Shown here one piece after another: positions 27,656 through 29,726 of a stretch of 64,000 nucleotides of DNA. How positions within the stretch are numbered: position 1 is the first letter of the stretch; each line of letters opens with the position of its first letter. Made by a program: the position numbers and the translations under genes. The stretch is from NCBI GenBank assembly GCA_902632605.1, contig CACPDB010000004.1, positions 96,511 to 160,510 of the forward strand. Direction: 5' to 3'. The stretch is from an uncultured SAR86 cluster bacterium (GTDB lineage: Bacteria; Pseudomonadota; Gammaproteobacteria; Magnimaribacterales; AG-339-G14). A model generated the notes under the pieces. It was not told the DNA's origin and made no database searches. It was given only the letters and a program-made list of their open reading frames with translations.

Positions 27656-28255
27656 TTATTTTAATTCAGTTCTAAAGGAAATTGCTCTTCTGAGAGTATT
27701 ATTATCAACATAATTTAAGTCTCCTCCTGCCGGAACACCTTGTGCAATTCTTGTAACGGTTACATCTTTCTTTTTTAATTTTTCCAATAAAAAATAAGCA
27801 GTAGCCTCACCTTCTAATGTTGAATTCAATGCAAGAATAACTTCCTTTGAGTCATATTCATCAATGATCTCTAATAATTTTTCTATTCTAAGTTCTTCGG
27901 AGCCGATATTATCTATTGGTGAGAGAAGACCGTTAAGAACAAAATACCTACCGTCAAATTCAGATGTTTCTTCAATTGAATAAAGATCGGAAGTTGACTC
28001 TACAACGCATATTAAATTCTTGTTCCTATTTGTTGAGTTACAAATTTCACAAAGCTCTTGATCATTTAAAACATTACATTTTTGACACAATTGGATATTT
28101 AAAATTGCATCTTCAATAGATTTGGAGAGTGTTAAGCCAATTTCTTTATTTGAACTTAGCAATGAAAGAGCCATTCTTTTGGCTGATTTTGGACCAATGC
28201 CAGGAAGAGTCTTTAACGAATCAATTAATTCAGAAATTTTAGGACTCAGTTTCAT
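27656..28255 (-). CDS. recR: Recombination protein RecR
   Basis: A 199-residue RecR. The helix-hairpin-helix [16 protein letters not shown], the C4 zinc finger ([16 protein letters not shown]), the Toprim domain starting [14 protein letters not shown] and the C-terminal Walker-B-like [11 protein letters not shown] region are visible. It acts with RecF/RecO to load RecA at gaps. It overlaps dnaX by 17 bp. The ybaB/ebfC gene that usually lies between dnaX and recR is absent. Confidence 0.96.
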
Positions 28256-29726
28256 TTTTTCTATTAAATTTTACAGACTCGATTTTTAGCCCGCCCACAA
28301 TTTCATTGAAGTTTTTATCTTTTTCCATGGTTTTTTTTATATTTCTTCTAATTCCTTTATCTTTGTTTTTTTTCTTATATTCTGGAGTAAGTTTTAAATC
28401 AACATCATCATCGTAAATAAATATCAATTTCATTTTTAGGTAATCTTCAAAACTTTTTTCAATATCGGATTTCTGATCATTATTAAGTATAGATAGAACA
28501 TTTTTTGGAAAAGATAGCTTTAGCTTATCTTCTTGCAGAGTAACACTTGCTTGCTTGAGAAGATTTTTTGATATGCCGTTGAGATTTAATTCAGTGAATA
28601 TACCTGGCCACTGAAGTTGAATGTCGTCCTGATTTTTAATTGCTAAAGAATTTTTTTTTTGACTTTCAGGAGAAAAAGCAACCATTTTTAATAGGGTCAT
28701 TTTGAGGATTGAAAGAGAATCATAGCCCAAACTAAAATGCTTTAAATTGGAAAGTCCTAACTGGTAAAGAAACTGGAGTTTGGCAGGATCGGTTTTTAGA
28801 AAATCAGTTTCATTATCTTTAACTGCTTTTTTTTCAAACTGACTAATTGCAATTTCTTGAATTAGATTCATTAAAGACTTTAATAAAAATTCGTGATCTT
28901 CGTATTCTCCATAATTTTCAAGAATTGATAGAACCTCTGTTATGTCTTCATCTAAAATTGACTTTAATAGATTCGCAATAATTTCAGGTTCTGGTATTCC
29001 TAAAACCTCCCGCACTTCTTTCTCTTCAAGATTTCTATTGCAAAAGGAAATTACTTTTTCAGAAATAGATAGAGCATCTCTAATACTTCCTTGAGCAGCT
29101 TCGGCGATAAGCTTTAAGGAGTTTTCATCTGATTTTATTTTTTCTTTTGAAAAAATTTCTCCTAATTGTTCCGAAATGACTTTTACAGAAACAGAACTTA
29201 AGTTTATTTGTAGGCATCTAGAGATTATTGTCGGCAAAATCTTCTTATATTCTGTTGTTGCAAACATAAATATTACATGAGGAGGTGGTTCTTCTAAGTT
29301 TTTTAGTAGAGCATTAAAACTTTCAGGAGTCAGCATATGAACTTCATCAATCAAATAAACTTTATATTTTGACGAAGAAGGCAAATAAGAAATAGTTTCT
29401 AAAAGATTTTTAGTATCCTCAATACCTCTTCTTGATGCCGCATCAATCTCAATAAAGTCAATTGCCGCTCCTTCATTTATTGATGTACATGATTCACAGG
29501 CGTTGCAAGGTTCCGAGTTATCGATTAAGTCAGAACAATTAAGAGCTTTTGCTAAGATTCTGGCAATAGATGTTTTACCGATACCTCTAGTTCCTGTAAA
29601 TAAATACGCATGGTGAATATTTTTCGAGGAAATTGAATTTTTTAAAGCTGCTATGGCATGATCTTGACCAACAACTTCTGAAAATTTAGATGGTCTCCAC
29701 TTTCTTGCTAAAACTAAATAACTCAT
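28239..29726 (-). CDS. dnaX: DNA polymerase III tau (and possibly gamma) subunit
   Basis: A 495-residue DnaX, the clamp-loader ATPase. The AAA+ module shows Walker A FTGTRGIGKTS, a zinc site (C65-region: CSDLIDNSEPCNACESC), Walker B VYLIDEVHML and sensor 1 ATTEYKKILPTIISRC. Domain III ends near residue 350; after it comes a short tau-specific tail, so this tau is shorter than the 643 residues of E. coli. Codons 356-359 hold a run of ten A on the coding strand (28660-28651); one added or lost A brings a stop within 8 codons, giving 363- or 360-residue gamma-like forms. It shares one base with the recX stop (TAATG). Confidence 0.95.
   Translation of the reverse strand: MSYLVLARKWRPSKFSEVVGQDHAIAALKNSISSKNIHHAYLFTGTRGIGKTSIARILAKALNCSDLIDNSEPCNACESCTSINEGAAIDFIEIDAASRRGIEDTKNLLETISYLPSSSKYKVYLIDEVHMLTPESFNALLKNLEEPPPHVIFMFATTEYKKILPTIISRCLQINLSSVSVKVISEQLGEIFSKEKIKSDENSLKLIAEAAQGSIRDALSISEKVISFCNRNLEEKEVREVLGIPEPEIIANLLKSILDEDITEVLSILENYGEYEDHEFLLKSLMNLIQEIAISQFEKKAVKDNETDFLKTDPAKLQFLYQLGLSNLKHFSLGYDSLSILKMTLLKMVAFSPESQKKNSLAIKNQDDIQLQWPGIFTELNLNGISKNLLKQASVTLQEDKLKLSFPKNVLSILNNDQKSDIEKSFEDYLKMKLIFIYDDDVDLKLTPEYKKKNKDKGIRRNIKKTMEKDKNFNEIVGGLKIESVKFNRKNETES
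28651..28660 (-). other. A10 slippage site within dnaX
   Basis: Ten consecutive A on the coding strand follow the C of the CAA codon for Gln356. Reading in the -1 frame (or after one extra A) ends QKKKFFSN-stop; after loss of one A it ends QKKIL-stop. This mirrors programmed or transcriptional slippage that makes gamma in E. coli and Thermus dnaX. Function here is inferred. Confidence 0.6.

Follow-up and report, generated by a model that had tools for sequence, protein, structure and literature searches.

A conserved A-run in dnaX of the SAR86 order as a predicted slippage site for a gamma-like clamp-loader subunit

Does the dnaX gene of an uncultured SAR86 bacterium encode, beside the tau subunit of DNA polymerase III, a shorter gamma-like subunit made by slippage on a run of ten A's? 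The routes to gamma described so far are diverse. Gamma of E. coli is produced by a -1 programmed ribosomal frameshift in dnaX (PMC5009743), that of Thermus thermophilus by transcriptional slippage on an A9 run within a single tau ORF whose other two frames are closed by nearby stops (PMC1088944, PMC5009743), and that of Caulobacter crescentus by proteolysis of tau (PMC5009743, PMC4456610). In other species, GeneTack has identified dnaX genes that carry A10 and are split into two ORFs (PMC3711429). According to reviews, frameshift-made gamma seems restricted to enterobacteria (PMC4456610) and most bacteria carry no frameshift signature in dnaX (PMC3290774). Among the papers searched, none mentions SAR86 together with dnaX.

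The run, its shifted frames and the predicted short product

The window analysed here is a stretch of 64,000 nucleotides of a SAR86 contig, in which dnaX lies on the minus strand with the following features:

28239..29726, minus strand: dnaX, DNA polymerase III tau, 495 aa, one open frame (TIGR02397 and Pfam; best matches in sequence and fold to E. coli clamp loader chains)
28668..29027, minus strand: domain III (collar), residues 234-353, the last complete domain of the predicted short product (Pfam PF12169; residue 353 aligns with E. coli residue 361)
28651..28660, minus strand: A10 run, codons 356-359, proposed slippage site (sequence and order-wide comparison)
28643..28645, minus strand: TAG stop of the minus-one-A frame (...QKKIL, 360 aa; sequence)
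28636..28638, minus strand: TAA stop of the plus-one-A frame (...QKKKFFSN, 363 aa; sequence)
28623..28661, minus strand: disordered interdomain linker, residues 356-368, pLDDT below 50 (AlphaFold2 model)
28242..28622, minus strand: C-terminal part confined to tau, residues 369-495, corresponding to E. coli domain V (from alignment to E. coli tau)

Read along the sense strand of dnaX, the T10 on the plus strand of the window is an A10, which covers the codons CAA AAA AAA AAT (Q356 K357 K358 N359). Tau is encoded in the zero frame, and both non-zero frames meet a stop nearby: an extra A, or a -1 shift, leads to the 363-residue product, and one A fewer, or a +1 shift, to the 360-residue product. 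The initial annotation had described the run at these codons, the two shifted ends and a location at the end of the AAA+/domain III part; the sequence agrees on the run, both ends were reproduced, and the run begins 3 residues past the end of domain III as delimited by Pfam.

The encoded protein is DnaX (gamma/tau), with the N-terminal ATPase and domain III both present; the TIGR02397 model of the gamma/tau N-terminus matches residues 3-348 with 403.6 bits against a cut-off of 250. Residues 1-353 match the E. coli gamma/tau chains and the crystallised gamma core. Since residue 353 corresponds to E. coli residue 361, the short product would be similar to the 373-residue gamma construct of E. 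coli that was crystallised (1jr3). In the AlphaFold2 model (39 sequences, mean pLDDT 82.2) the only internal stretch with pLDDT below 50 consists of the run and the residues that follow it. In the C-terminus, Pfam recognised neither domain IV nor domain V of tau, an unrelated hit staying below threshold. Its assignment to domain V relies on alignment to E. coli tau, in which W373 of the window protein pairs with W523 of E. coli and the greater part of the domain IV region is lacking in this family. The run thus cuts between the clamp-loader part and the counterpart of the polymerase-binding part of E. coli tau.

A RecX-like gene precedes dnaX with a 1-base overlap (29726), and the last 17 bases of dnaX are shared with the start of recR (window 28239-28255). 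Translation of slipped transcripts would end about 380-400 bases early, and because of the dnaX/recR overlap the translation of recR may drop as well.

Conservation of the run and of the nearby stops

The comparison across the order covered 93 dnaX genes from sampled SAR86 genomes of 4 families and 21 genera, whose proteins range from 92% down to about 33% identity to the window DnaX. An A9-A11 run occupies the dnaX site in 91 of the 93, whereas runs of at least nine A's occur elsewhere in the same genes only 7 times (48,070 codons in all), so that the run is far from chance. Breakage of the run by synonymous changes in relatives, which the initial annotation had named as evidence against its proposal, is therefore not what these genes display.

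The codon usage within the run is equally distinctive. K357 and K358 are invariant in an order-wide alignment of 39 proteins, in which the rest of the linker is unconserved, and 220 of the 224 Lys codons inside the run are AAA, compared with 71-85% AAA in the rest of the genes. In the three families with good sampling, almost all columns of conserved Lys outside the run contain both AAA and AAG, exclusive use of AAA being seen at 1 of 8 (f1), 1 of 13 (f2) and 0 of 9 (f3) such columns.

Long A-runs as such are not rare in the genome of the window (G000). It contains 136 A9 matches and, within its 1.22 Mb, six A10 runs including the one in dnaX, all of which were covered by a genome-wide look at A-runs in coding and non-coding context. 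Two of these served as controls. The A10 in a gene for a 481-aa protein (G000:C11:5204-5213), which lies over an invariant RKKKYIYP, is interrupted by AAG in 11 of the 12 relatives whose site was read, and the twelfth carries A9. The A10 in an IspF-like gene (L196, G000:C1:66783-66792) is common to 9 of 13 genomes of the genus, G000 included, is reduced to A8 in two and is absent from the two most distant. Because this second run is also widely shared there, conservation within a genus is weak evidence; it is the order-wide pattern that counts.

These data bear on the view that the run is functionless, its A's having accumulated by chance in an AT-rich, Lys-rich linker where out-of-frame stops come cheaply. 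The AT-richness of the genomes, the 136 A9 matches and the frequency of Lys in linkers speak for such an origin. It is nevertheless very improbable in light of the concentration of runs at a single site in 91 of 93 genes, the avoidance of AAG limited to the run, the breakage of other A10 runs in relatives and the presence of A9 at the same place in a dnaX gene of 68% GC outside SAR86.

The distance from the run to the first out-of-frame stop was compared, in the 89 intact genes, with that from all remaining codons of the gene concerned. Medians at the run were 2 codons in the +A frame and 1 codon in the -A frame; over whole genes they were about 4.6 and 7.0 codons, respectively. At the level of genus means (20 genera, Wilcoxon) the stops are nearer than this null in both frames (+A p = 1.3e-4; -A p = 4e-5), as is the longer of the two distances (p = 2e-6), although the +A-frame stop taken alone is only mildly closer (mean percentile 0.36, genus level) and near stops are cheap in AT-rich genomes, which is a caveat on this part of the evidence.

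Two of the 93 genes depart from the pattern. In G040 (L073/L200), the sole sampled in-frame dnaX of the order without the run, the full tau is kept. In G175 (L111/L202) the run is reduced to A8 and dnaX is out of frame exactly at the run, as it also is in G154 (L086/L201), which carries A11; in both, the remainder of tau is open in another frame. G110 (L114/L203) has an in-place A10 followed by a frame break about ten codons downstream, with the remaining tau likewise open in another frame. These three interruptions may be assembly errors; alternatively, G154 and G175 may be genomes with gamma in the zero frame and tau produced by slippage. The open but displaced tau remainders of G154 and G175 could also be taken as a sign of phase variation at the DNA level, with replication slippage at the run toggling tau in subpopulations. 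We regard this as extremely improbable: only three of the 93 genes are out of frame, replication should depend on tau, which would make its loss lethal, and the two genes in question may be accounted for in either of the ways just given.

Polymerase or ribosome as the candidate slipping machine

The A10 run is probably a selected, programmed slippage site at which slippage by RNA polymerase yields both tau and a gamma-like subunit. RNA polymerase would gain or drop A's while copying the run, giving rise to a mixed population of dnaX mRNAs. Full tau would come from transcripts whose A count is as templated or differs from it by 3; on every other transcript, ribosomes would meet a stop after a few codons, and the product would be a gamma-like subunit of about 360-363 aa. 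This short subunit would comprise the complete ATPase and collar domains (I-III) and be devoid of the C-terminal polymerase-binding domain. From the genes we infer that slippage occurs and gamma is produced, that RNA polymerase and not the ribosome is the slipping machine, and that gamma stands in some ratio to tau and is used in clamp loading.

The length of the run is the first point that separates the two candidate machines. The minimum for an in-phase A_AAA_AAR heptamer is 9 A's in runs that begin at codon position 1, 8 in those beginning at position 2, and 7 or A6G in those beginning at position 3, and the lengths observed for the three start phases were A9-A10, A9-A11 and A9-A10, respectively. 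In the two phases in which 7 or 8 A's would do, the runs exceed what the heptamer needs. All intact genes that carry the run have at least nine A's whatever the phase, the sole shorter run being that of the out-of-frame G175, and a length that is always nine or more irrespective of phase is what slippage by RNA polymerase needs.

The second point is the stimulators of the E. coli-type frameshift. Upstream Shine-Dalgarno (SD)-like motifs were found in 10 of the 89 genes against 12.1 expected, which is no excess. No stable downstream hairpin was detected, the mean folding energy being -3.8 to -5.5 kcal/mol compared with -19.4 for E. coli dnaX under the same handling, a comparison that rests on absolute stability only. 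A folding z-score was dropped as a discriminator, as it did not flag the E. coli hairpin, the positive control, either. An in-phase A_AAA_AAG of the E. coli type is likewise absent from the window gene, where A_AAA_AAA is present and the run goes on into AAT. Because of the length of at least nine in any phase and the lack of SD-like or stable hairpin stimulators, slippage of the Thermus type appears to fit better than ribosomal frameshifting of the E. coli type. The proposal of the initial annotation that gamma arises by slippage as in Thermus thus gains support from the position of the run, the closeness of both stops and the missing E. coli-type stimulators, as far as can be read from the genes.

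The tRNA complement, used as an argument in Thermus, is undecisive here, since one tRNA-Lys (UUU, as in E. coli) was found in G000 and two (UUU and CUU) in G043 of another family (f2).

Against this background, it is unlikely that gamma is produced solely by ribosomes, be it through -1 frameshifting on the in-phase A_AAA_AAA as in E. coli or through sliding on poly(A). An in-phase heptamer, A_AAA_AAA or A_AAA_AAG, is present in each run seen, a -1 stop lies close by in all intact run-bearing genes, and the single tRNA-Lys(UUU) of G000 would suit such a mechanism. On the other hand, the runs remain at nine or more A's where 7 or 8 would suffice, A_AAA_AAG, which is more shift-prone in E. coli (PMC5009743), is hardly used, SD-like and stable hairpin elements are lacking, near stops also occur in the frame not entered by a -1 shift of the ribosome, and the f2 genome has the second tRNA-Lys(CUU) in a Thermus-like manner.

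Set beside the known systems, the SAR86 site with its predicted polymerase slippage shares with Thermus the single-ORF tau, a sense-strand run of at least nine A's, near stops in both frames and a short product with the clamp-loader domains. It differs in position, at 72% of the gene and right after domain III compared with seven-eighths along in Thermus, and in the fixation of A9-A11 across a gammaproteobacterial order, with slippage predicted from the genes. E. coli dnaX is the same gene in the same class with the same type of product, and an in-phase slippery A-heptamer lies inside the SAR86 run; the window gene, however, is without A_AAA_AAG, an upstream SD-like motif and a stable hairpin, has stops in both frames, and has its site at the end of domain III rather than at codon 428. 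The GeneTack two-ORF genes resemble it in having a dnaX poly-A at which slippage connects the gamma and tau frames or separates them, but there tau requires the slip, whereas SAR86 tau lies in the zero frame, G154 and G175 being reversed. Caulobacter reaches the same end product by processing at the protein level, with no slippery run.

Comparable sites outside SAR86 and their meaning

Among other gammaproteobacterial families, runs of at least nine A's were found at codons 359-423, a range chosen after SAR86 was seen, in 12 of 99 dnaX genes, and elsewhere in one. The dnaX gene L193 (G294), mentioned above for its GC content, has its A9 at codon 377 with stops in both frames. Another, L154 (G241), is a two-ORF dnaX in which the zero-frame stop directly follows an A11 at codon 393, and the -1 frame is open for 208 codons. 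A phylum sample of 27 genes contained two more sites of nine or more A's and several A_AAA_AAG sites.

In a quick DnaX tree SAR86 formed one clade, and the other cases of nine or more A's needed about 11 changes, so that they look independent in origin, as far as a tree with many weakly supported branches allows. Convergence, as put forward in the initial annotation, is plausible in view of this scatter over the class, while the poor support of many branches weakens it.

The SAR86 site is a new clade-wide case of an already known type of dnaX slippage. On balance we lean towards the view that such slippage is no oddity of Thermus: in SAR86 it would be a fixed, ancestral route to gamma, and it would have arisen repeatedly at the same domain boundary in Gammaproteobacteria, with a gamma-containing clamp loader under selection in free-living, streamlined ocean bacteria. 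SAR86 and the scattered dnaX sites of nine or more A's provide a comparative test set. The role of gamma is disputed, and a site selected across an order with streamlined genomes, together with those in 12 of 99 other families of the class, would indicate that gamma matters outside E. coli. For SAR86, an abundant and mostly uncultured marine order, the pattern suggests that two replication proteins may be made from one gene by "stuttering".
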